From a virus: DNA of 40,042 nucleotides. A program made the translations under genes and the position numbers. Position 1 is the first letter of the stretch. Each line of letters opens with the position of its first letter. Shown one piece after another: positions 980 to 30,880 of the stretch. The notes beneath the pieces were generated by a model that ran no database searches, had not been told where the DNA came from, and saw nothing but the letters and a program-made list of their open reading frames with translations. Location: IMG/VR virus record IMGVR_UViG_3300028025_006607, positions 1-40,042 of that record; one strand, written 5' to 3'.

Positions 980-1930
980 TTAAGATAGCCCCCTATCGCA
1001 CAAATCTTTATTTCCTTTAAAAGGACAGTAAGTGCAATTGTGTTTTGAGGGTACCTTAAGTTGGGAACCTATGTTATAGGATCCGTCTTTATTAAACGCC
1101 ATCTCAATAAATTCATTAATAGCTTTAGTAGTTTTATTTAACTTGATTTTACCCGAGGATGGTACGTGAAGTTGTACTCTTGGGTCTGGGTAGTCAGGGT
1201 TGTTATGCAATTTACGTTTAACAATGAAATATTCTATTTCGATATTATCAATTGGGAAACCGTATTGCTCACTAAAGAATTTTTTGTAAAGAATTAACTG
1301 CATGTTTTTTATCTCATCAGTTTTTTCTTTATCTCTCCAACCACGAGTGGAGGTTTTGATGTCTATGATTTTGATCTGGTTTAGAGTCTCGTTGTATAAG
1401 ACAACGTCCAAGAATCCTTTATAGATAATGTTTTTATAAAGTGGATTGGGGTGAAGTAGGATTGGTACTTCAATACCTACCAACCACCAACCTCGTTTAC
1501 TAAAATATTTACCTTTGTTCTTTTTGAACCACGATAAAATACCTAAACCATCCTCATAAAATTCTCTTAGTTCTTCAGATGATGAAAAATGTTGTTTAGC
1601 ATTTTTTTCGTACTCTGATCTGTAAGTTTCTCGGAGTTGTTGTTCAAACATGGTCTCTAGATCCAATTGGTCTGCTGCGGTTTTACTTTCGTTATAAAAC
1701 ACAGTCAAATACTCTTGCATCACAGCGTGCATTGCTGTACCGAACGTCATATGAATCGAGGATTCCGAACGATAATGCCCATCTCTATACTGGAGTGTCC
1801 ATTTATGGGGGCAGGCCTCAAACATAGAGAATTGACTAAACGATATCGCTCTCTGATATCGATAGTCAACCTCTTGTGGTTTGAATTGTTTTACTTCTTT
1901 AACTATAGAAGGTACTTTCTTTTTAGCCAA
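980..1930 (-). CDS. PD-(D/E)XK nuclease, RecB/Cas4-like with probable Fe-S cluster
   Basis: The 316-residue protein carries the main marks of the RecB/Cas4/AddB nuclease family. These are an N-terminal QFSMFEACPHKW motif, GTAMHAVMQEYL (the G-x3-H-x3-E helix), GFLDVVLYNE and IKIIDIKTSTRGW (the catalytic D...D-x-K core), and MQLILYKKFF (the Q-x3-Y motif). Four cysteines, one near the N-terminus (ACPHKW) and three near the C-terminus (CTYCPFKGNKDLC), match the 4Fe-4S staple of Cas4 and AddB. It would cut or resect DNA ends in recombination, repair or host DNA breakdown. There is no Cas1 or CRISPR nearby, so a CRISPR adaptation role is not supported. It ends 3 bases before the DUF1599 gene on the other side. 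Confidence 0.85.
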   Translation of the reverse strand: MAKKKVPSIVKEVKQFKPQEVDYRYQRAISFSQFSMFEACPHKWTLQYRDGHYRSESSIHMTFGTAMHAVMQEYLTVFYNESKTAADQLDLETMFEQQLRETYRSEYEKNAKQHFSSSEELREFYEDGLGILSWFKKNKGKYFSKRGWWLVGIEVPILLHPNPLYKNIIYKGFLDVVLYNETLNQIKIIDIKTSTRGWRDKEKTDEIKNMQLILYKKFFSEQYGFPIDNIEIEYFIVKRKLHNNPDYPDPRVQLHVPSSGKIKLNKTTKAINEFIEMAFNKDGSYNIGSQLKVPSKHNCTYCPFKGNKDLCDRGLS

Positions 1931-1933
1931 AAC

Positions 1934-2287
1934 TTATTTCCACTTATTTCTCATAACTAGCTGGGCAATAATCCCGTAGTTGGAGATATCAATAAAACTG
2001 TCAATCACTGATTCACCTGCAACGTAGTTTTTACCACCACGTTTTAGAAGGTTTTTCAAGCGATTAATCTTGTCGTTGCAACGCAACCAAATACCTGTGA
2101 TTGAAAGATTAATATCATCTTGGTCTTTAAGTGAGGAACCTAAAGCAATATTACTTAGACCATAATCCATCATTTTAGCAGCGAACAATTCGTATTGTTC
2201 TTTTTGAATTTGTTGAAATTCAGCTGCTAATTCAGGATATAATTTTTCAAAATCATTGATCGCAGAATAGGGAACTTTTTGATCCAT
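1934..2287 (-). CDS. DUF1599 / nucleotide modification associated domain 1 protein
   Basis: The 117-residue protein is nearly all one domain: YGLSNIALGSSLKDQDDINL, GIWLRCNDKINRLKNLL, then ESVIDSFIDISNYGIIAQL. This pattern of an Asn/Gly loop, WLR..DKINR and an ES..D...D..NY helix fits DUF1599, a family named for its association with modified-nucleotide gene clusters. The helical E..D pattern suggests relation to all-alpha NTP pyrophosphohydrolases. In this genome it fits with the 7-deazaguanine genes at 11-17 kb, although it sits next to replication genes. The biochemical activity is not established. Confidence 0.65.
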   Translation of the reverse strand: MDQKVPYSAINDFEKLYPELAAEFQQIQKEQYELFAAKMMDYGLSNIALGSSLKDQDDINLSITGIWLRCNDKINRLKNLLKRGGKNYVAGESVIDSFIDISNYGIIAQLVMRNKWK

Positions 2288-2302
2288 AACTAATTTTTTA
2301 AT

Positions 2303-2740
2303 TTATAAAGTTTTTACTAATTTATCTTGTTCTTTTTGATCAATTCCCATCTGCCACAAAATATTTCGTACACCATGTTCTTGAATTATATCAATGTAGT
2401 AATCAGCTTCACCTAAACTACATTCGTAGTACTTTGCTACATATTCGACTATGTTTTGTGGTCTTTGTTTTTTACTTGGTTTGATATATTTTAACCAAAC
2501 TTTTTTCTTTGGGATCATTTCTCTGTAGATGGTATAAATTTGTTTTTTATTTTGTGGACTTATCTTTTGGACATAATTCACAAGTTCAAGGTAATTTATA
2601 TCCATAGATAAATATCTATGAACCATATAAGAGTTAAATGAGTCCCATGACTCTTCACTAAAATCTCCAGGAGGAGTTTTCTTAACTGTTATCTCTTCCA
2701 GCCAATCAAATAGTGTCTTCGTAGTCGTCTTTGATGTCAC
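2303..2740 (-). CDS. Clamp loader small subunit, gp62-like
   Basis: The 145-residue protein starts with FDWLEEITVKKTPPGDFSEE, then SYMVHRYLSMDINYLELVNY, a central IPKKKVWLKYIKP and a C-terminal helical part. Small clamp-loader subunits of T4-like marine phages share the order F.WL..I...K, (F/Y)MV.R.LS and (P/S)KKK..LKYIK. With gp44 it would form the pentameric ATPase that opens and loads the gp45 sliding clamp. gp44 lies just upstream, separated by three very small genes. T4 gp62 is longer (187 residues), so this is a compact form. The start overlaps the preceding gene by 35 bases, but no later Met precedes the conserved FDWL segment. Confidence 0.68.
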   Translation of the reverse strand: MTSKTTTKTLFDWLEEITVKKTPPGDFSEESWDSFNSYMVHRYLSMDINYLELVNYVQKISPQNKKQIYTIYREMIPKKKVWLKYIKPSKKQRPQNIVEYVAKYYECSLGEADYYIDIIQEHGVRNILWQMGIDQKEQDKLVKTL

Positions 2741-2948
2741 CTGGTAGAGTTTCTTTTAGAATTGCACCTGTTTTAACATCGTAAAATACAGGAATAGGAA
2801 TAAGTGCATCTTGCGCAGTACCTACAGCAAAACGTGATGCTTTACGCAAGATAATACCTTCAGCTACTACATAATTACCATCTGGAGTAATTACTTTTTC
2901 TGTGTTTTTTAGATCAATGTTTAGTTTTAGATCTTGATTTTGATTCAT
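2706..2948 (-). CDS. Small protein of unknown function
   Basis: The 80-residue product is not recognised. It is predicted to be mostly beta (NYVVAEGIILRKASRFAVG) with an acidic tail (DIKDDYEDT). The ATG overlaps the stop of the upstream gene as ATGA, and its end overlaps the gp62-like gene, so it is translationally tied into the clamp-loader operon. There is no signal peptide or membrane segment. Confidence 0.6.
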   Translation of the reverse strand: MNQNQDLKLNIDLKNTEKVITPDGNYVVAEGIILRKASRFAVGTAQDALIPIPVFYDVKTGAILKETLPGDIKDDYEDTI

Positions 2949-3142
2949 AAGTTTTCTTTTTTGTGTTTAATCCAATCAATATAGAAGCCGAGTGCTACTA
3001 TAATGTTCATTCCAAATGAAGCTAATATTTCATAAATGTCTTCATAGATATTCATCGTCAAATGGACATGTCCTACCATCCAGAAAGGTATGGAAAGATT
3101 TCCGCTAATCCAAGTTAGAGTGTACTTCAGGAACTGCTTCAT
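2945..3142 (-). CDS. Small membrane protein
   Basis: The 65-residue protein has two likely membrane segments: SGNLSIPFWMVGHVHLTMNI, and one through ASFGMNIIVALGFYIDW. It ends in a basic tail (KHKKENL). It overlaps the upstream gene by 38 bases and the downstream gene by an ATGA, so it belongs to the clamp-loader operon by arrangement. The function is unknown. Small phage membrane proteins of this kind are often involved in host takeover, but nothing in the sequence shows that here. Confidence 0.55.
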   Translation of the reverse strand: MKQFLKYTLTWISGNLSIPFWMVGHVHLTMNIYEDIYEILASFGMNIIVALGFYIDWIKHKKENL

Positions 3143-3317
3143 ATTCTATATCTTGAATTTCTCTACAGAAATAATATATATTTTCTTTTTTAAGCACTGA
3201 ATCGCAGTGCCAAAACTCTTTAAGCAACTCAGCATCTACTGGTTTATCTCGCTCTTTATAAGTTCTATAGAGATAGAATGAACGAGGGCCCATATGTACT
3301 ATCTCCATATTGATCAT
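3105..3317 (-). CDS. Small protein of unknown function
   Basis: The 70-residue protein is not recognised. The start is supported by an ATGA overlap with the stop of the gp44-like gene. It has a basic, aromatic N-terminal half (FYLYRTYKERDK) and two cysteines (WHCD, YFCRE). It lies between the two clamp-loader subunit genes. Confidence 0.55.
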   Translation of the reverse strand: MINMEIVHMGPRSFYLYRTYKERDKPVDAELLKEFWHCDSVLKKENIYYFCREIQDIEYEAVPEVHSNLD

Positions 3318-4231
3318 AGAACTGAGATGATTTTAGCTATACAGGCTATAATATTGATTTCCTTATCAATTCTAAAGTTAGAGTGGTATTGATATTCTTC
3401 AAGAGTAATTACCACCATGCCTTCTCGCCCGTCAGCATAGTCTGAAACGCGCGAATAAAGCTCCTTAAAAAGTTCATCATAATCATTAATGTTAGAATCA
3501 GCTATTATCTGACGAATGTTTTTCCAGTTTTTACCGGTTTTAAGCTCGTTTATTACTTGCTCAATATAATTGTTCGATACAAGTATCGATTTATCTAATT
3601 TAAGCACGTTATTAACGGTAGATAACTGTGCTGTACCTAGAATTTTACGAATATCAGGGTAAAATTGTTTAACAATAGTTCCGAGTGCTTCTTTATCCCA
3701 TTGAATACTCTCTTTATCTAAAACGCCTGCTACGTGACGAGCAACATCCTTCATAGAAGGTGGTACAATTTTGAGTACCTGACAACGTGATTGAAGGGGA
3801 TCAATAATGCGCTCTACATAGTTACAGGTTAAGATAAAACGTGTACTACGTGAGAATGTTTCGATTACGTTTCGAAGTGATGCTTGAGCTTGGATTGTTA
3901 AAAAATCCGCTTCATCCAAGATAACGATTTTAAGAGGCTTAAAAGACGCCGACGAAGCAAAGCCAGAAACCTTATCCCTAATAGTCTCAATACCGCGCTC
4001 ATCTGAAGCGTTGATGTAAAGATAATCACACTCCAGATTATTAACAATAAGCTTAGCAAGAGTAGTCTTGCCGGTTCCTGGTCCACCATAAAAGATAAGA
4101 TTTTGTATGTCGTTCTGTTCTAAATATTTAGCTATAGTAGCTTTGATATTTTCATTACCTACATATTCATTTAGTCCTTTAGAACGATATTTTTCAACAA
4201 ATAGAGTATGTTCTTTACTCGAAATCACCAT
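3314..4231 (-). CDS. Clamp loader large subunit (AAA+ ATPase, gp44/RFC-like)
   Basis: The 305-residue AAA+ ATPase begins FVEKYRSKGLNEYVGN, the usual RFC start. It has Walker A GGPGTGKT at about residues 49-56, Walker B VILDEAD at 103-109, sensor 1 ILTCNY near 133-138 and the clamp-loader SRC motif at 148-150. The C-terminal half is the helical collar. It would load the sliding clamp at primer-template junctions by ATP hydrolysis, working with the gp62-like protein. T4 gp44 is 319 residues, so the length fits. The gene overlaps the small upstream gene by 17 bases and lies downstream of groEL in the same leftward run. Confidence 0.93.
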   Translation of the reverse strand: MVISSKEHTLFVEKYRSKGLNEYVGNENIKATIAKYLEQNDIQNLIFYGGPGTGKTTLAKLIVNNLECDYLYINASDERGIETIRDKVSGFASSASFKPLKIVILDEADFLTIQAQASLRNVIETFSRSTRFILTCNYVERIIDPLQSRCQVLKIVPPSMKDVARHVAGVLDKESIQWDKEALGTIVKQFYPDIRKILGTAQLSTVNNVLKLDKSILVSNNYIEQVINELKTGKNWKNIRQIIADSNINDYDELFKELYSRVSDYADGREGMVVITLEEYQYHSNFRIDKEINIIACIAKIISVL

Positions 4232-18346: not shown

Positions 18347-19507
18347 TTAAAAATAACGTATCATATCATTATTTGGATCTTCTGATTGTTTCTTTTTGGG
18401 AGTATACGGAGAGTTTAGGGTAATATTTTTTTCAATTTCTTCCTTTATTTGTTTTTCTTCATCTATAATCTTCCAATCTTGTTCTGGGGTGTCTTCAGTT
18501 TGGTAGAATAATTTACCTGTTTTAGGATCAACCATAACAGGTACTCCTTGTATTTCTTCATTTAATATATCTAAAGAGGGTTCACCACTCATTTTGATTT
18601 CAATTTCTGGTTCCTCTTCTAAACCATCCATTAGAGTTACATCCCATTCTTTTAAGTCATCTTCAGTATAGATATCACTTCCTTCATTATCTTCTACTTG
18701 TTCTTTTAATGGGTATTCTTTTTTAGGACGTAGTTGGTTAAAGGCAAAGTTAGCAGCAATTACAAGTGCTATTGCTAGAGGATCAAATACAAAGATGATT
18801 ATTAGAAGAAGCCAGTTAATAATCCGGTTCATCTCTACCCCAGTTAACTCTGAAAGATATTTAAGTGGGCCTAGTTCACTTGCTACTTCACTATTAACTT
18901 TAGTTTCTAGGATTTTTGTTTCAAGAGAAAATATAGAATCATTTATAACATCTAGTTTAATGGCTAGTCTTTCGTTTTCTTTAGCTGTTGATTCGATGTT
19001 TCGAATAGCTGAATTGTTTGTTCTAACTACTAGATTACCATTTTTATCTGTAAATTGGGTTGTTGAACCTTTAGAAAGTGTACCTCTAAGCTCGTTATTT
19101 GATTTTCTATCTGCTAAAAGATTATCTCTTGTTTCCTCATATAATACTTTTTTAGTTTCTAAAGCAGTGATTTGTTGAGTTACAATACCTTCTTTATTAG
19201 CTGTTTCCTGATACGCCCCAGATAAAAAACCATAGATACCTGCTGAGGTAATTAATATAAGCACACAAGTTGCTACTGCTAGGTATGCTCTTAAACCTTT
19301 ATTTAAGGAATCCCAGTATTGGTAAAGTAGGGAAGCAATTACAAGTTTAGCTACCTCAAGTGAAGAGGCCATGATAATGACCTCAAGTGACGCCCCAGCA
19401 AAGAGTTTGCTAAGGCCACTAACTGAATAGAAAGCGGCCGAAGCAGACACTGACAGGGCCGATAATGCTATTAAAAGCGGAAATATTTTATTCTTTAGGT
19501 TCTTCAT
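18347..19507 (-). CDS. Multi-pass membrane protein with periplasmic coiled coil
   Basis: The 386-residue protein has about three N-terminal membrane segments (IFPLLIALSALSVSASAAF; ASLEVIIMASSLEVAKLVIA; AYLAVATCVLILITSAGIYG). A long charged helical region (about residues 100-225) follows, then another membrane segment (WLLLIIIFVFDPLAIALVIA) and an acidic cytoplasmic tail ending PYTPKKKQ. The FDPLAIALVIAANFAFNQLR segment is, as far as I recall, typical of a conserved unknown protein in T4-like marine phages. It lies next to the holin-like gene, so a part in lysis or lysis timing is possible. It overlaps that gene by 20 bases. Confidence 0.75.
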   Translation of the reverse strand: MKNLKNKIFPLLIALSALSVSASAAFYSVSGLSKLFAGASLEVIIMASSLEVAKLVIASLLYQYWDSLNKGLRAYLAVATCVLILITSAGIYGFLSGAYQETANKEGIVTQQITALETKKVLYEETRDNLLADRKSNNELRGTLSKGSTTQFTDKNGNLVVRTNNSAIRNIESTAKENERLAIKLDVINDSIFSLETKILETKVNSEVASELGPLKYLSELTGVEMNRIINWLLLIIIFVFDPLAIALVIAANFAFNQLRPKKEYPLKEQVEDNEGSDIYTEDDLKEWDVTLMDGLEEEPEIEIKMSGEPSLDILNEEIQGVPVMVDPKTGKLFYQTEDTPEQDWKIIDEEKQIKEEIEKNITLNSPYTPKKKQSEDPNNDMIRYF

Positions 19508-19925
19508 CTCTTATACCTTTATGTTTATCTATTTTATCCAAGATTTGGTTTAATAGACTCATCTGGATAAATCCTGCCATAGATGCATTTTTAAGTGCAC
19601 TTATGAGCTGGAACACCATAAAAGGTACTACAATTACTTCACTAAGCCAAGCTGTACCAGCAAAGCCTTGTTCAACCATTAAAATAACTGTTAAAATAAC
19701 TAACCACGCAACGGTGTTTCTTAGTACTTTAATTGCTTTACGTGTTTGAAATCCTTCTCTTCTAGTACCAGCAATCATACCAAAGATACCATCTAAAAAC
19801 ATTACTCCCACTATAGCTAGATACTGATCAGAATTTGCCATTGTTAGATTCATAAAATAGGAACACATAAAGGTTACACCTGCGGTAAATGATGTAATAG
19901 CTAATAGTGGGAGACTTAGTTTCAT
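19488..19925 (-). CDS. Holin-like membrane protein
   Basis: The 145-residue protein has four likely membrane segments (start to residue 27; VGVMFLDGIFGMIAG; TVAWLVILTVILMVEQGFAG; VIVVPFMVFQLISALKN), with a polar loop (TRREGFQTRKAIKV) and a charged C-terminal tail (LDKIDKHKGIRDEEPKE). The LDGIFGMIAG...F...K pattern resembles the phage toxin-secretion/lysis holin family. It sits right beside the endolysin gene, the stop of one meeting the start of the other. It would form membrane holes that release the endolysin at lysis. Confidence 0.65.
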   Translation of the reverse strand: MKLSLPLLAITSFTAGVTFMCSYFMNLTMANSDQYLAIVGVMFLDGIFGMIAGTRREGFQTRKAIKVLRNTVAWLVILTVILMVEQGFAGTAWLSEVIVVPFMVFQLISALKNASMAGFIQMSLLNQILDKIDKHKGIRDEEPKE

Positions 19926-20743
19926 TATGCTATATCTTTAGATTCAATAAGAGTGTAGGTAAATGATTTAAAACCAGCAGTTTTAGCTTTTCTAGCAATA
20001 GCCATAAACTCTTCAAAATCAGCTGCTCTTTTAAATACTTGGCATCCTTCAGACCAGTTTTCTACATAAGTTGAATCTGCTCCGGCTTTATGGATATTGA
20101 TGCCAAAGATACCTTCTTGGATTTTGGTTTCATCATAGGTCATATCTCTGTTAGGATCTCTATAAACTTTAACAGATTTTTGCTGTCTTAAAGCTTCATA
20201 TTTACCTTGGTGTAGACCTAAAGCATGTGAATCAATATATTGACCTTCTACTAGTCTTGCAACTCCAGCAGCATTATGATATTCTTTTACTCCTTTAGTT
20301 CCGGGGTCGGTAGTATTCATCCATTCTTTGTAAATCCATTCCCCATTAGCTTGGTAGGATAAAGTTAGTCTGTCATCAAAAGCATTAGTTACTTTTTGAC
20401 CTGTATCTGAGTTACGAACACCAACAATATTTAAATGGTAATCTTTACCTTCAAACCATTTATATCCTTTAGCTTTAACAGCAGTTTCAACTTTTTCTTT
20501 TGAATATTTAGTAGTTCCTGTTGTAGGTTTTGATGTTGTAGCTGGGGTTTTGGTTTCAACTACAATACCCATTTTTACTAGAGTAGCGGGGCCTACAATA
20601 CCATCAGCAGGTAAACCATTTTTCTTTTGCCAAGCTTTAACTGCTTCTTCTGTTTTTGGGCCAAAATTGCCTATTGGGTCAACACCTAAAACGATCTGTA
20701 CTTTTTTTACAATCTCGTTATTATCACCTCTTTTTAATATCAT
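19925..20743 (-). CDS. Endolysin-like protein: peptidoglycan-binding domain plus L,D-transpeptidase-like domain
   Basis: The 272-residue protein starts with a peptidoglycan-binding type 1 domain (LKRGDNNEIVKKVQIVLG, FGPKTEEAVKAWQKKNGLPA, DGIVGPATLVKMG), then a Thr/Pro/Lys linker (about residues 65-82). The C-terminal domain has GIFGINIHKAGADS and WSEGCQVFKRAADFEEFM, that is His then Ser-x-Gly-Cys, the arrangement of L,D-transpeptidase (YkuD-like) catalytic sites. In phages such proteins cut peptidoglycan during lysis. There is no signal peptide, so a holin would be needed, and one is encoded next door. The catalytic-domain type is less sure than the binding domain. Confidence 0.78.
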   Translation of the reverse strand: MILKRGDNNEIVKKVQIVLGVDPIGNFGPKTEEAVKAWQKKNGLPADGIVGPATLVKMGIVVETKTPATTSKPTTGTTKYSKEKVETAVKAKGYKWFEGKDYHLNIVGVRNSDTGQKVTNAFDDRLTLSYQANGEWIYKEWMNTTDPGTKGVKEYHNAAGVARLVEGQYIDSHALGLHQGKYEALRQQKSVKVYRDPNRDMTYDETKIQEGIFGINIHKAGADSTYVENWSEGCQVFKRAADFEEFMAIARKAKTAGFKSFTYTLIESKDIA

Positions 20744-20760
20744 TTTATTATTATTTTAAA

Positions 20761-21045
20761 TTAACCAAGTTCTTCTTCTTCGTAATCGTAGCTCTTTTTA
20801 GCTTTAGAAGTTTTTTCTTCTTTTTTATCTCCAAAGATCTTACCAGCTTCAGCAATACCAAAGGCACCAAGAGTAATAATTACAAATGAATTGAATACAG
20901 TATCTGAGATAACAAGTTCTTGTCCGAAAATACCTGTAATAATATCAGCAACTGCTGCTAAACTCATTACTGAGAAAGACATAAAACCAACGATTGTTTT
21001 TTCGTTGTAGTCATTTTTGTCTTTAAAAATGTCTTTAAACGCCAT
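20761..21045 (-). CDS. Small membrane protein next to endolysin
   Basis: The 94-residue protein has a charged start (FKDIFKDKNDYNEKT), two membrane segments (IVGFMSFSVMSLAAVADIIT; FNSFVIITLGAFGIAEAGKI) and a Lys/Glu-rich tail (DKKEEKTSKAKKSYDYEEEE). The hairpin form with charged ends fits small holin or antiholin proteins, and it lies 17 bases from the endolysin. It is not recognised by sequence. Confidence 0.6.
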   Translation of the reverse strand: MAFKDIFKDKNDYNEKTIVGFMSFSVMSLAAVADIITGIFGQELVISDTVFNSFVIITLGAFGIAEAGKIFGDKKEEKTSKAKKSYDYEEEELG

Positions 21046-21105: not shown

Positions 21106-21525
21106 TTAAAGTGTTTTTAAAGCGTCCTCAAGAGAACGCTGTAGAGCTTTGGAGAATGCCTTTCTATTAAGCGGAACTTCATTGTTTTCAACATCTAAAG
21201 CAGCTGCGAATAATAATGTTTTTCTTTTAGCATCTCCTGCATATTCTTTCCCGTCAATAGTAATTTTAACCTCTACAATGTAATCTTTTCTTAACCATTG
21301 TAATCCTACTATGTTAAGTTTTTGTTGTGGGGATTCTATTTTAACAATTTCTACTGCAATATGACATGATAAAGGATTAATGTTTTTATCATATAGCAGT
21401 TCTTCAACTGTTTCTTTAACACCAAATCGAACATCTCTGTCTTCGATTGTTTGTACTGGGGTAGAGTTGATAACTGTATCAATCTGAGAGGTTGCTAGGG
21501 TAGCTGCTAATAAAAGTGATAACAT
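21106..21525 (-). CDS. Secreted or periplasmic protein of unknown function
   Basis: The 139-residue protein has a short hydrophobic start (MLSLLLAATLATSQ) that may be an export signal. The rest is beta-rich with a helical end (RKAFSKALQRSLEDALKTL). The shape recalls small periplasmic or lipid-linked envelope proteins, but no family is recognised. It is the downstream end of the envelope/secretion block: it starts 1 base after the stop of the GEVED protein gene. Confidence 0.55.
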   Translation of the reverse strand: MLSLLLAATLATSQIDTVINSTPVQTIEDRDVRFGVKETVEELLYDKNINPLSCHIAVEIVKIESPQQKLNIVGLQWLRKDYIVEVKITIDGKEYAGDAKRKTLLFAAALDVENNEVPLNRKAFSKALQRSLEDALKTL

Positions 21526-21526
21526 A

Positions 21527-22579
21527 CTAATTATTGTGTCCTGTTCGTATTAAGTAAAAATTTGTGCTACCTCGGTTTGTTAATCCGCTTGTAGTAACAC
21601 TTTGTTGTCCGGTATACGTATTTTTCAAATTACTACTAGAAGCATTTATAACATTCCATTCTGCAACAGTAAATATTCTATAATTAGGTACCCCTGGTCT
21701 CCAGCTTCTACCTATTATTCTCATAAAAGTTAAGTAAACATCTGTGATACTTAAGTTATTATCTCCGTTTACATCCATTCTATAATAGTCTTTAGATACA
21801 AATGATTGAGATAATACTTTTTGGTTGAATGCTTGGGCATCATTTATTAAGGGAGACGTTATAGATAGATTACCAAGACGTAATTCAAAATCATATAAAT
21901 TAGCATCTCTAGAAGATGTTAAATTATACCTACCATTAACATCTGTTGTATGGTTACTTAATAAAGTATAAGTAGCATCTGATTTTAATTTACTATAGAG
22001 CTGAAATGGTATATTAGGAATACCTACCCCGTTCGCTCCATAAACATACCCTGAATAAGAAAATGGGTCTTGTGCTCCTGTAATAGTGGTTCTAAAGTCA
22101 AATGTATTACCATATGAATAGTTACCACAAAGAGCAGGTGCTGCAGAATACACCATTATAAAACGAGCATAAACTTGCCCATTAAATACTGAAGTAGGTA
22201 CAGTAAAAGTGCTAGTAAAACTTCTAGTACCAGTCCAAACATCAGTATGTGAATAAACTAGTTCGCCAGCATCATTTAGATTACCATTACCATTAAAGTC
22301 AATCCATAATTTAAAATATTGCTGGTATGCTCCTTTAGTTTGGGCTGTAAATGAAATTGAAATGTTTTGCCCTGCGTTAATAGTAGGGATAGGAGTACCT
22401 GTATAATTGTAGTAACCAGGGCCTGTATAGTTTGTATTACCCTGATAGTATTGTCCGTTTATGGTTATATTAGCCATATATTCATAGCCAAAGCTAGTAG
22501 CACTACTAGCGCAAAGAGTAGTTTGGGCATATGATTTTATACCTAATAAAATAAATAATATTATGAGTAAGTTTCTCAT
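21527..22579 (-). CDS. Secreted GEVED-domain protein with dockerin-like module
   Basis: The 350-residue protein has a signal peptide (LLIILFILLGIKSYAQ). A GEVED-type beta domain follows (about 25-165), with FKLWIDFNGNGNLNDAGELV. A prealbumin-like domain (about 172-245) has GVGIPNIPFQLYSKLK and TDVNGRYNLT. A dockerin-like stretch is near 268-290 (MDVNGDNNLSITDVYLTFMR). The last two modules match those in the T9SS protein at 24917-26803. There is no T9SS signal at its own C-terminus. Such proteins act outside bacterial cells. It would be exported by Sec to the periplasm or beyond. Confidence 0.78.
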   Translation of the reverse strand: MRNLLIILFILLGIKSYAQTTLCASSATSFGYEYMANITINGQYYQGNTNYTGPGYYNYTGTPIPTINAGQNISISFTAQTKGAYQQYFKLWIDFNGNGNLNDAGELVYSHTDVWTGTRSFTSTFTVPTSVFNGQVYARFIMVYSAAPALCGNYSYGNTFDFRTTITGAQDPFSYSGYVYGANGVGIPNIPFQLYSKLKSDATYTLLSNHTTDVNGRYNLTSSRDANLYDFELRLGNLSITSPLINDAQAFNQKVLSQSFVSKDYYRMDVNGDNNLSITDVYLTFMRIIGRSWRPGVPNYRIFTVAEWNVINASSSNLKNTYTGQQSVTTSGLTNRGSTNFYLIRTGHNN

Positions 22580-23928
22580 AGTATAAGTTTGGAACCTAAT
22601 AGTACTTGGTAATTTAAAACATTAGCACCTGCTAAATAAGTTCCACCACCTGTTAATCCTACTCCAAATGTTTTAGTTAACTTGTAGTTTATATTAAAGA
22701 ATGGAATGACAATAGGTTTAGAATCAAACCAAGATTCAGTATAGTATTTTGAATAAGGAGCATAAACAGCAGCCGTAATTAAAGTACCATCTATATTTTT
22801 GTAAATTTTACCTTTATACATAAACCCAGCTACAGCTAGAGTTGATATAATAGGTTCTTTATATAAGTAACCAGCACTACCAGCAGCACCATAGATAGCA
22901 GTAAAACGTTTTAAACTGTTTACTCTGATGAACATAGTTGTATTAGTCCAGGAACCAGGTTGAATTGAAAATCCTGAAGATAATAAATTAATGTGTTTAT
23001 TGCCTTTTTCAGTAGTACCAATCCAAGATTTCATTAGTGTAATATTACTAATTTTAGCTCGAATCATGTAGTCGGCTGATAAGCCAAATGATGCTGTTCC
23101 GTCTCCTTTTACGCGAGTAAAAGAAAATGTACCTCTAGCATCATTAGTTTTATCATCTGTTTTTTGAAGACCAACTATATCACCAGTTACTAAAATAGCA
23201 GGCTTTTGTACTTGTGTTCTAGCTTTAGCTGTTGTTTTAGAAGTTTGGTTTGCTTCTGTTTTTTGTTGTTCTGTTTTTGCTTCGTCTATTTTTTCTTCAG
23301 ATGGTACTCCTTCTTGACTCTCCCCTTGAGTTTCTCCTGCTGTTGTTCCTCCGCTAGATTCGCTAGAGTTAGAACCCCCAGAATTAGGTTCGCTATTACC
23401 CCCACTACTACCAGAACCGGAATTTGAATTATTGGGGGAACCAGTGTTATTGCTATTGTTGTTATTGTTACTATTGTTACTTGAGCTGGTGGTATTTGAC
23501 TGGGGGTTGTTATTGTTTTCGTTAGTGTTGGAGTTGGATGAGTTAGTGGAGTTAATATTTCCTCCTAGATTCATAGAAGAAATAGACGTAACAGCACTTA
23601 AATTTAAAACACTATTAACTAGATTTGTAGTTAAATTTGTAGTAGATGTTGTTGTAACCGTGGTAAATACTTCATCACAAGGGGATGCTATAAAGTTAGA
23701 GTATACTTGGTTAAGCCACGTATCTAAAACACCACTAGAAATTTCATTGTAAGTAAATGCTCTAGTTTGCCCATAGTACGATACTATAATAGGAGCAGAC
23801 ATATCGTACATCAAAGTTTGCACTTGTTGAGTACAAGGGTCAACATACGAATACATGAAGGTCTGCCCTTTTAAGGACAAACCTCCAAGTAGGAATAATA
23901 AAGCTAATATTTTACTTTTCAAAAACAC
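22576..23928 (-). CDS. Exported protein with low-complexity linker and probable outer-membrane barrel
   Basis: The 450-residue protein has a signal peptide (SKILALLFLLGGLSLKGQ). An N-terminal domain (about 20-90) contains VDPCTQQVQTLMYDMS. A long Asn/Ser/Gly/Glu-rich linker (about 120-235) follows. The C-terminal 210 residues have alternating strands such as KDIVG..., FTRVKGDGTASFGLSADYMI and FGVGLTGGGTYLAGANVLNY, ending in KLIL. This is the pattern of a small outer-membrane beta barrel. It overlaps the CsgG-like gene by 17 bases. Similar marine-phage proteins may exist near csgG genes, but I cannot name a family. Location in the outer membrane is inferred. Confidence 0.7.
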   Translation of the reverse strand: MFLKSKILALLFLLGGLSLKGQTFMYSYVDPCTQQVQTLMYDMSAPIIVSYYGQTRAFTYNEISSGVLDTWLNQVYSNFIASPCDEVFTTVTTTSTTNLTTNLVNSVLNLSAVTSISSMNLGGNINSTNSSNSNTNENNNNPQSNTTSSSNNSNNNNNSNNTGSPNNSNSGSGSSGGNSEPNSGGSNSSESSGGTTAGETQGESQEGVPSEEKIDEAKTEQQKTEANQTSKTTAKARTQVQKPAILVTGDIVGLQKTDDKTNDARGTFSFTRVKGDGTASFGLSADYMIRAKISNITLMKSWIGTTEKGNKHINLLSSGFSIQPGSWTNTTMFIRVNSLKRFTAIYGAAGSAGYLYKEPIISTLAVAGFMYKGKIYKNIDGTLITAAVYAPYSKYYTESWFDSKPIVIPFFNINYKLTKTFGVGLTGGGTYLAGANVLNYQVLLGSKLIL

Positions 23929-24634
23929 CGTTCTTGATAAGTTTTTCGATTACATTAGTACTAGCAGTTTCTAATGATTTACGAGTTGCCTTACCAACTG
24001 TGCTTTGAGAGAAAGTCATACCATCTAATGACTTTAAGAATGCTTCACCAGTTTTAGTAGCCTCACCTTCACCTGAACCAATATAAATTTGGCCAGTTTC
24101 AGCGTTTACAAATCTAACTTGTAGTCTAATAAATGTAGTTACTACAACTTTAGCTTTGCCTTTTACTACTGTTTCGTCCTCATCAACAGCAAAGTCAGCT
24201 ACAGTTACGTAAACAAAGTAACGAGCAGCTTTAATTTTACCTTTACCGTCAATAGGCTCTTCAAAGACACCTTTTTTAGATGCTTTGAATTGGGTTACCA
24301 TTCTTTCTTTGATTTCAGATTTTTCTTCGGTAAAATCAAAGCGATTTGTTTCATCTAAATAATCAAGCACTGATTCAGCAAATCCTAAACCTACATTTTT
24401 TTCTTGTAAGCCAGGGTACATTTTAAATACTTTCTCTAAATCTACGTTCACAACTTGAACAGTAGTTTTAGCCCCAGTATAATCTGAAACTGTTGAAATG
24501 CTTTTAGATACTACTTCATCTCCATCAGTTACAGTTGACATTGAACCGCAACCTGATAATAGAAGGAGGAATACTAGACTACCAAGGATCTTCTTCACTT
24601 GTCTCTTCTTTTTTAGCAGGAGCTGGTTTTTCAA
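23912..24634 (-). CDS. CsgG-like outer-membrane lipoprotein
   Basis: The 240-residue protein has a lipoprotein signal (KKILGSLVFLLLLSGCGSMS, Cys29 being the likely lipidated residue). A CsgG-like body follows, with KTTVQVVNVDLEKVF, GFAESVLDYLDETNRFDFTE, AARYFVYVTVADFAVDEDE, AKVVVTTFIRLQVRFVNAETG and ending STNVIEKLIKN. CsgG family proteins form ring-shaped outer-membrane pores for curli subunits. CsgG homologues have been seen in some marine T4-like phages. A GTG at 24598 would give a shorter, more standard signal peptide (VKKILGSL) and cut the overlap with the upstream gene from 56 to 20 bases; the given start is the ATG. No curli subunit gene is seen. Confidence 0.72.
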   Translation of the reverse strand: MKNQLLLKKKRQVKKILGSLVFLLLLSGCGSMSTVTDGDEVVSKSISTVSDYTGAKTTVQVVNVDLEKVFKMYPGLQEKNVGLGFAESVLDYLDETNRFDFTEEKSEIKERMVTQFKASKKGVFEEPIDGKGKIKAARYFVYVTVADFAVDEDETVVKGKAKVVVTTFIRLQVRFVNAETGQIYIGSGEGEATKTGEAFLKSLDGMTFSQSTVGKATRKSLETASTNVIEKLIKNGVFEK

Positions 24635-24914
24635 TTACTCTTTCTCTAATTACAGTGTTACCACCGCTTTGTTTTTGTTGGTTAGTGTTTTCAATGTTAA
24701 CAACTATTGGAGCAGGAGTAGCACCACCAACTGGAGTAGTTTGAGCTGGGGCTTCAATTACTTGTTCAGTTTTTACTTCTGTTTCTTCTTCAACACCAAA
24801 AAATTTATTGATGTTTGTTGTTACGTAAACCCCAGCTGCTGTGACAGCAGTTGTAAGCACACCTATTATAGTCTTTTTAAGACCTGATAATCCGCCTTCT
24901 TGTTCTTCGCTCAT
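24579..24914 (-). CDS. Single-pass membrane protein with Pro/Glu-rich tail
   Basis: The 111-residue protein has one membrane segment (KKTIIGVLTTAVTAAGVYVT, about residues 13-33). A low-complexity tail follows, rich in Glu, Pro, Thr and Gln (EETEVKTEQVIEAPAQTTPV), ending EETSEEDPW. The tail could span the periplasm. The CsgG-like lipoprotein starts inside it in another frame, an arrangement that recalls Rz/Rz1 spanin pairs, but that likeness is only structural. It is not recognised. Confidence 0.6.
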   Translation of the reverse strand: MSEEQEGGLSGLKKTIIGVLTTAVTAAGVYVTTNINKFFGVEEETEVKTEQVIEAPAQTTPVGGATPAPIVVNIENTNQQKQSGGNTVIRERVIEKPAPAKKEETSEEDPW

Positions 24915-24916
24915 TT

Positions 24917-26803
24917 TTATTTAGATATTATAGTTCTACTTGTGGCAACCTGCTTACCAGTTAAAATAGAAGTGTAATAAACACCATTATTTAAAACTGA
25001 TAAGTCTACTTCATATACATATTGACCTGCGGGTACATATTCGTTAATAACCTGGATTAATTTTTTTCCTGTAATATCAAATATAGCTACTTCTGTTTTA
25101 GAGTCTTGTAAAACATTAAATTGAACTACAGCTAACCCTTTTGTAGGATTAGGGTAGGTTACAATATCAAACCCCTCTAGGGCTTTTGGGTCTGAATTAC
25201 GTTTTCTAATTTCGATTCTACCATTAGTAGGTTTGATATTCATATCACTTGATTGAACATCACCCACATATTTTTCAGCTACATAAAGTGGGGATACAGT
25301 CCAGTTTAGTTTAGGTTTTAAAGCAGTAAATTGTAGAGTAAACACTACATCACCATCTACTAAATTATTGTCGTTTGAAAAATCGGCTCCACCCCATTCT
25401 ATAGCACCGTTTGAAGGGTTAAAGTACGACATCCAATTCATTGCTTTTTCACTGTTTAAAACATTACTGAATGAAAGCAAATCTTGGTCGTATTTAACAT
25501 TTAATTGTAAAGCACTTAAGTTATCTTGACCAGTAACTACAGTTACAGGAACGTTTACTAGGTTACCTTCTGTTACTTCTAGGTCTGGGAATCTAACTTC
25601 AATTTCATCTATTACATTATCGTATTGAACTGTTTGGTCAATAATGTAGTTTGGAGCATTGTTTGGATTAACAATTGTTATGGGCACTAAACGTGCCATT
25701 TTAAAACCAGTTGAGTTAGCATCACCCTTAACCGCTACATAGTATGTAACTGAGTCTTTACCGTTAATTAAGTACTCAAAGTTAGTTACACCTGGGATTG
25801 TTGAAGCTTGGGATGTAGATGTACCATTGATTGTGTTACGTTGTGTTTCTGTAAAGAATAAAATATCAGGCACATTATTAGGCCAAGTAGCAAAATTACC
25901 AGCTAATTTACCAAACACAGCATACGCATCCGAAATTGTAACTGAGTTAGATCCGTTTACATCCATAGTATAAAAGTCAAATCCTGTTGGAGTGTATTGA
26001 CCTAATACTGCTTGGTTAACTTTTTGGGCGTCTGCCGTTGAAATTACATTACCAATTGTCATGGTATCACCCTGAACTTTGATACGAGCGTGCCAATAAG
26101 TAGTATCTAATGTTTGAGTAAAGCTAAATCTACCTACTGTATTTGTTTTAATTGTTTCTACAGTAGTCCAAGTTGAACCTGTTTTAGGTTTTTTCTCTAA
26201 AGATAACCATAAGTTTTTAGCTCCATTACCTGCTGGGGTTACAAAACGTCCTTTAAATGTAAAAGCACGTTGAGTAAAGTTACCACCATAAGAATACATT
26301 GTTAAAGTAGTATCGTTTCCTAAATTAGTAGCAGCTAAGTTACTAAATGTTTGAGTGCCTGAAATTTTTAAGTCTTTAATACTATCTAAAGTATTCCAAG
26401 TAGCAGGTACAGCATGAGTAAAAGTAATACCTACAGCAGCGCCATTGGCATAACTAAAGTTTGTATTAGTACCTGTATAAACTAAAGTAACTGTAATGTG
26501 ACCATCAGTTTGGTTAACTACATATTGCATGTATTGGTCTGTAGCACTATATTTTAAAGCTACTACAGGAGCAGCTCCATTAAAAGCTACTTTATCATAC
26601 CATACTCTAAATTGTAAACCAGTAATTTTTTTACCGTTTTGATTAGTATAGTATAAGTCGGCTTCTGTAGTACCTGTAGTTGAAGTACCTACAGTATAAG
26701 AAGTATCTAAAATTACCCAGTGACCATTACTTGGAGCAGGTAAAGTTTGACCAAAAGTTACTACTGTAAATAGTAAAGCTAAAATTGAAAGGAATTTTTT
26801 CAT
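24917..26803 (-). CDS. Secreted cohesin/dockerin-like protein with type A T9SS sorting domain
   Basis: The 628-residue protein has a signal peptide (KKFLSILALLFTVVTFGQ). A cohesin-like beta sandwich (about 20-165) follows, then a prealbumin-like domain (about 180-255) and a dockerin-like module with MDVNGSNSVTISDAYAVFGK (near 280-300). A second cohesin-like domain lies at about 400-530 (LQLNVKYDQDLLSFSNVLNS; NNLVDGDVVFTLQFTALKP). The last 75 residues are a type A T9SS signal: VTYPNPTKGLAVVQFNV, VAIFDITGKKLIQV, AGQYVYEVDLSVLNNGVYY and a final TSRTIISK. The T9SS would move it across the outer membrane and anchor or release it. It starts 4 bases inside the metallopeptidase-like gene and is in the same run as the CsgG-like gene. 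Confidence 0.87.
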   Translation of the reverse strand: MKKFLSILALLFTVVTFGQTLPAPSNGHWVILDTSYTVGTSTTGTTEADLYYTNQNGKKITGLQFRVWYDKVAFNGAAPVVALKYSATDQYMQYVVNQTDGHITVTLVYTGTNTNFSYANGAAVGITFTHAVPATWNTLDSIKDLKISGTQTFSNLAATNLGNDTTLTMYSYGGNFTQRAFTFKGRFVTPAGNGAKNLWLSLEKKPKTGSTWTTVETIKTNTVGRFSFTQTLDTTYWHARIKVQGDTMTIGNVISTADAQKVNQAVLGQYTPTGFDFYTMDVNGSNSVTISDAYAVFGKLAGNFATWPNNVPDILFFTETQRNTINGTSTSQASTIPGVTNFEYLINGKDSVTYYVAVKGDANSTGFKMARLVPITIVNPNNAPNYIIDQTVQYDNVIDEIEVRFPDLEVTEGNLVNVPVTVVTGQDNLSALQLNVKYDQDLLSFSNVLNSEKAMNWMSYFNPSNGAIEWGGADFSNDNNLVDGDVVFTLQFTALKPKLNWTVSPLYVAEKYVGDVQSSDMNIKPTNGRIEIRKRNSDPKALEGFDIVTYPNPTKGLAVVQFNVLQDSKTEVAIFDITGKKLIQVINEYVPAGQYVYEVDLSVLNNGVYYTSILTGKQVATSRTIISK

Positions 26804-27237
26804 TGGATGTGTTTTAAGGCGTTTTCTTTAAGCCAAGGTTCAGGGTTTGTTAGTTTTTGTATAAATTCTAATTCATATCGATAACAATAATTTTCTTCTT
26901 CAGCAGGGGTCATTTTTACCCCCTTACGTAGGAAGTATAAATGAAGGGATTCATGAATCAAAACACAAGCTAGGTTATTGACTCCTAGTTTTACGTCTTT
27001 AGTTGACACATAAATCCTACCTGTTTTTCCTACTAATTCATTAGAAGAAAAATTACTTATCCAAAAACTAACCTCCTGACAAACACTATCCAATAACTGG
27101 TGTTTTTGTAAATCGGTCTGTTTTATAACAGTAAGCGCTGAATCTATCTTTAAATCCCAACCATCTCCTGCTTTATCAACTCTAATTTGACCTGAGCAGG
27201 TAAACGGTATGAGAAGTAAAAGTAAAAACAGTCTCAT
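26800..27237 (-). CDS. Secreted small HExxH metallopeptidase-like protein
   Basis: The 145-residue protein has a signal peptide (RLFLLLLLIPFTCSGQ) and a zincin motif CVLIHESLHLYF (His95-Glu96-x2-His99). Acidic residues follow (TPAEEENYCYRYELEF) that could give the third zinc ligand. It is much smaller than most zinc proteases. Substrate and activity are unknown; it may trim a phage or host envelope protein. Its stop overlaps the start of the T9SS protein gene (ATGA), so the two are made together. It begins just below the terminator hairpin at 27252-27275. Confidence 0.72.
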   Translation of the reverse strand: MRLFLLLLLIPFTCSGQIRVDKAGDGWDLKIDSALTVIKQTDLQKHQLLDSVCQEVSFWISNFSSNELVGKTGRIYVSTKDVKLGVNNLACVLIHESLHLYFLRKGVKMTPAEEENYCYRYELEFIQKLTNPEPWLKENALKHIQ

Positions 27238-29287: not shown

Positions 29288-30880
29288 TTATTTTATGATT
29301 GTTATATTGAATGTATGATTTTCTTTTTTAGAAGCCCAATTTAAGTATAAAGTCCCGTAATATACTCCAGGGGGAACATCACCACCGTTCCAATCGTTTT
29401 TGTAATCTGTTTGCTCATAAACTATTTTACCCCATCTATTGTAGATTACAATATAGTTAGTAGTCCAAGTGTTTAGATTTTTGATCTTAAACGTATCGTT
29501 AATATTATCTCCATTTGGAGTTAACACGTTTGGAATTGTTACTGGACGGGGTCTTGGACGAGGTTCAGGTTCAGGGCCATTTGGATCTTCGTCTAATTCA
29601 GGATCGATTGGAGGAGGGGGAGGAGGTGGGGGGCAGTCTTTAACTACAATTACTATTGTATCAAATTCTGACATAGGTAATCCACACTTATTGATTAAAG
29701 TATTTCCATCATCTCCTTTTTTACTGTAAAGATAATATCTTCCATTTAATTGGAGTCCAAAAGGAAAATATAACTCTAGAGAATCAGTTTCAGCGTTGAC
29801 ATCACAATTAGCCTGGATTTGAGTTATAGCTACAGGTTGACCATCGGGACCTGTCATTCTAAAGTCTGTAGTGTTAACTGAATAGCAGTCTAGCTTGATA
29901 TGGAATTTTAAAGTTAAACTAGTATCTCCACAACTTGCCTCTATGTAAGGTAAAGCAGTTAACGTGTCAATAGGATATAAAAAAGGATCATATTGTACAC
30001 CTTGGGTTGCTAACAGGTTGCAATTTGGAGAGACTGAGATCATCATGTCTCGGCTTGCACTTCCTACTTGATACCACGAACCATATAAAGTGTCGAATCT
30101 CCACTCTTCAACCAAAACTGATAATACATCAATTTCTACTTGGGTTGGAAGGAATGAAATTAACCCTGTACTAGGGTTAATGTTAAAGTAAGTTGAGGTA
30201 ACAGGTTGAGTTGCAGTCCAACCTGCATCAAATGGAATGTTTGTTTGGGTTGGGTAAGCTCCTTCTCTACAGTTAATTAAAGAGTAAACGATTGAATCAC
30301 CATTAGCCTCAATTACGGATTGCTTCCAGTTAAACGGATTACCCACACAGAATGCTCGTACTGGTTCACTTACAAAAATAGGAGATGAATTTTGCCCTTG
30401 TGTAGAATTGTCCAGTTTGGCATCAAAATAGAATCCATCGTTACCAAAAGCACCGTTTGATCCGTTTATATTGTTGATACCTCCTGGTCTGCAGCAATTG
30501 TCGTACCAAAATCTATAATCCGAGCAATTACCGGGTAAAATAACGTACCCAATGTATAAGTAAACCTCTAGCGTTTTGGTTGTAGGCCCAGGAACAACAC
30601 AATCAAATAAAGTAGGGGCTACTAAACCAGAACCAGGTTGCAAATTCATAGGAATGTTTATGTTTGAATAACATCCTGAACTAACTGTTACCTGATCTGT
30701 AGTGGGCATAGCAATACCTGTTACATCTCGATAAACTCGTAAGATAACTTTATAATGACGAGCTACTCCTGTTGAATCTCCTATGTAACGATACTGGATG
30801 TCACCTCCAGAGAGGTGACTACCCAGTAAAGATAAAGTGGAGAATAAAAAAGATAAAATTAAAAGATACTTTCGTCCCAT
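29288..30880 (-). CDS. Secreted protein with type B T9SS (gliding-motility) C-terminal domain
   Basis: The 530-residue protein has a signal peptide (YLLILSFLFSTLSLLGSH). The start SHLSGGDIQYRYIG is typical of large surface proteins of Bacteroidota. Cysteine-containing beta domains follow (to about residue 415), then a proline/acidic linker (DCPPPPPPPPIDPELDED; PEPEPRPRPRP). The C-terminal 85-residue domain has VLTPNGDNINDTFKIKNL, IVIYNRWGKIVYEQTDY and DWNGGDVPPGVYYG, the type B T9SS sorting domain (gliding-motility-associated). The gene lies inside the nrd operon, overlapping nrdB by 22 bases. Its role could be adhesion or change of the host surface; the sequence does not say. Confidence 0.9.
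   Translation of the reverse strand: MGRKYLLILSFLFSTLSLLGSHLSGGDIQYRYIGDSTGVARHYKVILRVYRDVTGIAMPTTDQVTVSSGCYSNINIPMNLQPGSGLVAPTLFDCVVPGPTTKTLEVYLYIGYVILPGNCSDYRFWYDNCCRPGGINNINGSNGAFGNDGFYFDAKLDNSTQGQNSSPIFVSEPVRAFCVGNPFNWKQSVIEANGDSIVYSLINCREGAYPTQTNIPFDAGWTATQPVTSTYFNINPSTGLISFLPTQVEIDVLSVLVEEWRFDTLYGSWYQVGSASRDMMISVSPNCNLLATQGVQYDPFLYPIDTLTALPYIEASCGDTSLTLKFHIKLDCYSVNTTDFRMTGPDGQPVAITQIQANCDVNAETDSLELYFPFGLQLNGRYYLYSKKGDDGNTLINKCGLPMSEFDTIVIVVKDCPPPPPPPPIDPELDEDPNGPEPEPRPRPRPVTIPNVLTPNGDNINDTFKIKNLNTWTTNYIVIYNRWGKIVYEQTDYKNDWNGGDVPPGVYYGTLYLNWASKKENHTFNITIIK

Follow-up and report, generated by a model that had tools for sequence, protein, structure and literature searches.

A linked six-gene phage cassette that may display a glycan-binding protein on infected Bacteroidota cells

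In the usual view, a phage acts on the envelope of its host mainly to get in, to keep rivals out with one small protein, or to lyse the cell. A 40-kb virus record (IMG/VR record IMGVR_UViG_3300028025_006607, positions 1 to 40,042; the whole stretch is called the window here) raises the question of what use a phage has for a run of exported proteins around a relative of the curli secretion protein CsgG. A first-pass annotation, made from the letters alone, had described three reading frames within 22576-24914, coding for a CsgG-like lipoprotein, an exported protein with a barrel-like C-terminus and a single-pass membrane protein. In the analysis reported here, these genes were found to belong to a cassette of six: a scaffold, a tether, the CsgG-like protein, the barrel protein, a protein with an exchangeable lectin-type head (lectin-slot protein) and a second, shorter protein with CsgG fold. 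Hundreds of large aquatic phage contigs keep these six genes for an apparent outer-membrane complex and a surface lectin. All cassette genes of the window lie on the minus strand.

A linked unit of six genes

Linkage was counted around 111 distinct CsgG-like sequences, of which 58 belong to the clade of the window and 53 to other clades, using the loci with enough flanking sequence. The CsgG-like gene was accompanied by the tether in 93/93 loci (45/45 in the window clade, 48/48 in others), by the barrel gene in 94/94 (51/51 and 43/43) and by the scaffold gene in 88/88 (40/40 and 48/48). The gene for the shorter CsgG-fold protein of 139 amino acids was present in 88/88 loci, and it was a separate downstream open reading frame in 241/241 loci of a set that counts some contigs more than once. 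Because a first count of lectin-slot genes could include the scaffold, lectin genes were counted again as open reading frames of their own. Thereby, the gene was detected in 65/65 loci on either side of the CsgG-like gene and downstream of it in 218/241. A search seeded with the barrel protein recovered the CsgG-like gene and the tether in 54/54 loci. The genes stay together though the CsgG-like proteins of different phages are only 43-46% identical, so the linkage is more than chance.

The three open reading frames of the first-pass annotation do form one overlapping minus-strand run, and the check for the same three genes in other phages showed them together in all loci with enough flank. 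As a set of three, the unit was drawn too small: the interval leaves out the scaffold on the upstream side and, downstream, the genes for the lectin-slot and second CsgG-fold proteins.

The cassette was found at several hundred loci on contigs from a few kb to 434 kb. In the isolate Flavobacterium phage immuto, which infects Flavobacterium, it corresponds to gp013-gp019, annotated as lectin, cohesin and hypothetical proteins. The carriers form a group of large phages that is very common in fresh and sea water and apparently infects Flavobacterium-like bacteria. For cellular homologues, a scan of 84,980 species genomes, of a kind that reaches close relatives only, gave a single match. This contig (RFPL01000028.1), binned as a Sphingomonadaceae metagenome-assembled genome, holds the cassette genes as well, and elsewhere in the assembly no CsgG exceeded the threshold; therefore, it is probably phage DNA in the bin.

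Predicted folds and export signals

The CsgG-like protein could not be classified from its sequence alone. Single-sequence searches gave no match of the window protein to PF03783, single-sequence scans of Pfam and PHROGs gave no informative match for tether, CsgG-like and barrel proteins, and a sequence-profile search of solved structures gave none. Among 28 diverse family members, PF03783 was matched by six at an E value of 0.1 or better (best 1.9e-4), and one relative, in phage record L170, passed the curated cut-off of 20.8 bits with 21 bits. An AlphaFold model of a single chain was built from a 28-sequence alignment (predicted local distance difference test, pLDDT, 70.6). The modelled order is strand-helix-strand-helix, followed by three long strands and a C-terminal helix, and the best match among solved structures is CsgG (Foldseek 2.6e-6; Z score 12.1 over 170 residues, 4.1 Å). 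Eight CsgG entries headed the ranking (Z 11.1-12.1, 156-171 residues), and the next entries reached 10.7, 9.1 and 8.9. Cj1090c (10.7), PelC (9.1) and LptE (about 8) are further matches of the same superfold. According to the model, the protein thus has a CsgG fold, which agrees with the similarity proposed at first pass. A profile comparison with nine curli CsgG proteins was not significant (probability 2.1). All 58 distinct window-clade sequences have a lipobox-like context, and 24 of 52 distinct sequences of other clades have no Cys near the end of the signal peptide. Relatives of the protein are abundant in viral contigs.

The protein had also been called a pore, and this part of the description did not hold up as well as the fold and the lipoprotein signal. 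In an alignment made by eye, the first transmembrane hairpin of CsgG is kept. It is acidic in the phage family, with an invariant EDE, and one of its strands has a charged fraction of 0.41 versus 0.19 in real CsgG. The segment matching the second transmembrane hairpin is about 12 residues shorter and has no strands in the model; this hairpin seems to be missing in the phage family. Hairpin hydropathy was not decisive, as the measure failed to separate real CsgG hairpins cleanly. Without an evident second hairpin and with strong acidity in the first, the CsgG-like protein is doubtful as a barrel of its own, and the channel is more likely the separate barrel of 12 strands.

The 139-residue protein lacks the hairpin region. 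Its profile comparison with the CsgG-like family gave a probability of 91.8 (E 7.6e-7), compared with 0.2-7.8 for the other pairs tried, and blastp between members reached 2e-6. Judged from these comparisons, it and the CsgG-like protein are remotely related. An assignment as CsgE was rejected on profile comparison.

For the barrel protein, the expected signal peptide, Asn/Ser linker and C-terminal barrel were all predicted, the barrel with 12 strands as in type V autotransporters. The mean pLDDT of the single-chain AlphaFold model is 61.5, with about 70-87 across most of the barrel. Nearly all structural matches were outer-membrane barrels, led by EspP (Z 17.3), NalP (16.8), CymA (16.4) and OmpG (15.2) and also including FapF, TamA, PcoB, KdgM and, weakly, PelB (entry 9h80). 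The PelB/PelC exopolysaccharide exporter likewise combines a ring-forming periplasmic lipoprotein of the CsgG superfold with a separate outer-membrane barrel. It differs in that no sequence relation is shown; moreover, 12 strands are predicted for the phage barrel, which lacks a large periplasmic part.

The mature N-terminus of the barrel protein is conserved (QxFxYSYxDPCT). In curli systems, CsgF plugs the CsgG pore. A comparison with CsgF gave a probability of only 7.8, aligned exactly at this N-terminus (QTFMYSYVDP versus ELVYTPINP), which is a mere lead. Together with the CsgG fold and the adjacent gene for an exported partner, this weak motif likeness recalls curli secretion (type VIII, CsgEFG). 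The cassette differs by its separate barrel, by the apparent lack of the second hairpin and by the absence of CsgA/B, CsgE and CsgF. The earlier statement that no curlin-like protein is present was confirmed and extended, as CsgF, CsgE and curlin repeat (PF10614, PF10627, PF07012) were found in 0/26 phage records, some of which are fragments.

The tether has a single hydrophobic segment near the N-terminus in 21/21 aligned sequences. The best 19-residue Kyte-Doolittle mean is 1.0-1.6, and because this segment is weak, a single-pass membrane protein, as initially described, is likely rather than certain; the Pro/Glu-rich tail of that description is present. The terminal [PS]W was found in 112/112 distinct tethers, including 20 whose end is not overlapped by the next gene. 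It is thus conserved as protein and not merely as the start codon of the next gene.

The scaffold carries the marks of a type A cargo of the type IX secretion system (T9SS), namely a C-terminal sorting domain over the cut-off and, by eye, a signal peptide. Each of the 26 phage records has exactly one match to the sorting domain PF18962, all over the cut-off and all in the scaffold gene. The cohesin domain PF00963 was over the cut-off in the window scaffold and in most scaffolds tested. In immuto, the scaffold is divided between two genes, gp014 and gp015. T9SS cargo of a phage has been noted once before, in 'Cryophage', where type A signals were described on proteins of the phage, including one that has a PA14 domain (PMC7468147). 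These are presented there as single variable cargo genes, and the available passage describes no scaffold, barrel or CsgG-like partner (PMC7468147).

The lectin-slot protein combines an exchangeable head with a constant C-terminal module. Heads differ between phages: GEVED in the window, C-type lectin in immuto, and elsewhere PA14, ConA-like or Ig_7 with C-type lectin. Matches to the window head were seen in 5 of about 20 relatives, and to the window C-terminal module in all 20 listed. In 26/26 phage records, this module occurs only at the cassette locus, in scaffold and lectin-slot genes. Its resemblance to type I dockerins (PF00404) stays below the cut-off (0.0043-0.013 in three relatives), and one calcium-loop motif is visible by eye. 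A T9SS signal was found neither in ten lectin-slot proteins scanned nor in that of the window. The pairing of a cohesin on a surface scaffold with a dockerin-like calcium loop on a partner with a carbohydrate-binding head is reminiscent of the cellulosome; the differences are the dockerin match below the cut-off, the single loop, the presence of the module also in the scaffold, and the lack of enzymes. Two other ideas on the lectin-slot proteins were rejected. For a diversity-generating retroelement behind the variable lectins, a reverse transcriptase was found in 0/26 phage records, and a role as tail-fibre part is contradicted by the confinement of the module to the cassette locus and by the signal peptides of the proteins. 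In phage record L170, two lectin-slot genes stand in tandem (1494-3770), which suggests duplication or exchange of heads.

Possible function and alternative explanations

We regard it as about an even chance that the cassette exports a glycan-binding protein and displays it on the infected Bacteroidota cell. Membrane crossing, assembly, localisation, docking and purpose are deduced here from gene content and linkage, fold predictions and export signals. Sec would carry the exported proteins across the inner membrane. From there, the scaffold would pass the outer membrane via the host T9SS and sit on the surface with its cohesin domain. Beneath the outer membrane, the CsgG-fold protein, aided by its shorter paralogue, may form a ring, with the 12-stranded barrel above it as channel in the manner of PelC with PelB. 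The tether would connect this complex and the inner membrane, and its C-terminal -[PS]W is the likely contact. The lectin-slot protein, having no T9SS signal, could go through this complex or be retained by it and, as a guess, dock on the scaffold by a cohesin/dockerin-like contact, so that the exchanged head might bind sugars on the own or neighbouring cell surfaces. The fuller proposal of a new trans-envelope apparatus, in which the host T9SS plants the scaffold and phage ring, barrel and tether load an exchangeable lectin that alters adhesion or entry of rival phages, is put forward more tentatively.

The most likely use is remodelling of the surface during infection, either to shut out rival phages or to keep neighbours or particles nearby. 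That the glycan-binding head varies on a base that stays constant hints at selection by changing surfaces, and this fits such remodelling better than lysis. Export and display are supported by the linkage without exception, the one T9SS signal per record together with the Flavobacterium host of the isolate, the swappable heads, the signal peptides seen by eye across clades, the predicted folds of the barrel and the two CsgG-fold proteins, and the structural matches of the CsgG-like protein to PelC and of the barrel to PelB. Several points weigh on the other side. The proposal is read from sequences and from models of single chains and moderate confidence. The dockerin-like match is below its cut-off, and the same module also lies inside the scaffold. 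The membrane segment of the tether is weak, and in the window and many relatives the cassette stands beside lysis genes, which also fits a lysis role. Of the uses offered at first pass for an outer-membrane channel, the envelope complex stands, probably for export; nutrient entry and lysis are the less probable ones.

Uses of phage csgG genes have been proposed before. Pelagimyophages carry CsgG and CsgF without curlin subunits, for which uptake or 'sibling capture' was suggested (PMC7029224), and for the same combination in Methylophilales phage Melnitz, lysis control was suggested (PMC9004378). Both share with the cassette a phage CsgG-fold protein without curlin within a conserved gene group of unexplained use. 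They are phages of Proteobacteria with a recognisable CsgG and with CsgF, whereas the cassette of Bacteroidota phages has a remote CsgG relative, no CsgF, a separate 12-stranded barrel, a T9SS cohesin scaffold and a lectin. If the CsgG-like protein alone formed a nonameric outer-membrane channel, it could depolarise the cell or leak at lysis, as was proposed for the other phages with csgG and csgF (PMC9004378). CsgG being the best structural match and the holin and endolysin genes adjoining the window cassette agree with this idea; we consider it unlikely, as there is apparently no room for a second transmembrane hairpin, the first has an acidic strand, the profile likeness to curli CsgG is not significant, the 26 records hold none of the curli partners, and the immuto cassette is not beside its holin. 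The comparison of the tether and lipoprotein genes with spanin pairs, which would break the outer membrane at the end of infection, was drawn from the overlap of the two genes, and the order of an inner-membrane-type protein and an overlapping lipoprotein gene near holin and endolysin speaks for it. It was not supported: the lipoprotein is a folded CsgG domain, its lipobox is missing in about half of the non-window clades, the gene overlap is absent in many members with [PS]W retained irrespective of it, and wherever flanks permit the check, barrel, scaffold and lectin-slot genes accompany the pair. Hence, this explanation is highly improbable.

The sugar-binding heads and the resemblance of the barrel to the small-molecule channels CymA, OmpG and KdgM would also suit an uptake device, in which the surface lectin captures polysaccharide, and barrel and periplasmic ring import it to feed phage production. 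Such a device is rather unlikely, since no degrading enzyme, SusD-like protein or inner-membrane transporter was found in the cassette and a T9SS-bound cohesin scaffold is foreign to known uptake systems. Alternatively, the barrel protein could be a small autotransporter that threads its own N-terminal domain through the barrel, the rest being unrelated surface decoration. EspP and NalP as best matches and the order domain-linker-12-stranded barrel speak for it, but, for a typical passenger, the conserved N-terminal domain is too small and too constant, other kinds of barrel score nearly as high, and the coupling to CsgG-fold genes is strict, which makes this explanation improbable.

No description of the cassette was found in a library of open-access papers. 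Judged from architecture and linkage, it appears to be new as a system, built from known folds. Should the display of a phage lectin prove true, infected Bacteroidota cells would bear a surface of viral design, and this would affect aggregation, the sinking of organic particles and competition between phages. The cultured pair of immuto and Flavobacterium sp. LMO8 makes this display testable, and the csgG genes of pelagiphages, which are unexplained, can be compared with the cassette.

Gene order and neighbouring genes

Genes are listed in the order of transcription in Table 1. Most adjacent genes in the run overlap or nearly abut. Overlaps are 56 nucleotides between tether and CsgG-like genes (24579-24634, provided that the TTG start is used), 17 nucleotides between CsgG-like and barrel genes (23912-23928) and 4 nucleotides between barrel and lectin-slot genes (22576-22579). 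Some loci of several clades (L149-L152, L155 and others) contain about 0.3-1.3 kb of extra sequence between tether and CsgG-like or between CsgG-like and barrel genes.

Table 1. Cassette genes, their domains and adjoining genes of the window, in order of transcription
Feature	Position	Strand	Description	Basis
Exported HESLH protein	26800-27237	minus	145 amino acids; overlaps scaffold start; optional cassette member	Sequence
Scaffold, exported	24917-26803	minus	628 amino acids; signal peptide (by eye), cohesin and T9SS sorting domains	Pfam, TIGR04183
Scaffold, N-terminal cohesin-like region				By eye
Scaffold, module common to lectin-slot protein				
Scaffold, cohesin domain	about 25208-25597			PF00963 4.2e-6, over cut-off
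Scaffold, T9SS type A sorting domain	24926-25156			PF18962 1.1e-10 and TIGR04183 7.3e-10, both over cut-off
Tether	24579-24914	minus	111 amino acids; weak hydrophobic segment at about residues 15-34, then Pro/Glu/Asn/Gln-rich tail of about 75 residues, ends [PS]W	Alignment, hydropathy
CsgG-fold lipoprotein	23912-24634	minus	240 amino acids; TTG start; lipobox LLSGC, Cys29 at 24548-24550	AlphaFold model, family profiles
Outer-membrane barrel protein	22576-23928	minus	450 amino acids; signal peptide, N-terminal domain, linker, 12-stranded barrel	Alignment, AlphaFold model
Barrel protein, N-terminal domain	residues 23-117		Small, conserved	
Barrel protein, linker	about residues 118-240; 23209-23577		Disordered, Asn/Ser/Gly, about 120 residues	
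Barrel protein, C-terminal barrel	residues 244-448; 22585-23199		12 long predicted strands	
Lectin-slot protein	21527-22579	minus	350 amino acids; signal peptide, GEVED head, constant C-terminal module	Pfam, family comparison
Lectin-slot protein, GEVED head	about 22091-22318			PF20009 5e-12
Lectin-slot protein, constant C-terminal module			Dockerin-like Ca-binding motif DVNGDNNLSITD	
Second CsgG-fold protein, exported	21106-21525	minus	139 amino acids; shorter, without hairpin region	Profile comparison
94-residue protein	20761-21045	minus		
Endolysin-like protein	19925-20743	minus	Neighbour outside constant unit	PF01471 or PF05105, phrog_199 or phrog_1493 (matches of the endolysin-like and holin genes together)
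Holin	19488-19925	minus	Neighbour outside constant unit	As above

The HESLH gene is present in 36/58 distinct window-clade loci (about 60%) and in 10/53 others. Its product had no family match in Pfam or NCBIfam and, from its motif, is possibly a very small zinc metalloprotease. Endolysin-type genes lie near the cassette in the window clade, and in immuto the holin and the adjoining endolysin are about 30 kb away from it. Next to the holin of the window, a minus-strand gene (18347-19507) codes for a protein of 386 amino acids with several hydrophobic segments and a long middle region, for which Pfam and PHROGs gave no clear family. The window also encodes a DnaB helicase, ribonucleotide reductase, a chaperonin, QueC and a phage tail lysozyme. 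Between the two ribonucleotide reductase genes lies a minus-strand gene (29288-30880) for an exported protein of 530 amino acids with a type IX secretion signal of the CHU_C type (PF13585, 3.8e-19). It is a second phage-encoded T9SS cargo of this genome, and signals of this type were detected in 3/26 phage records.

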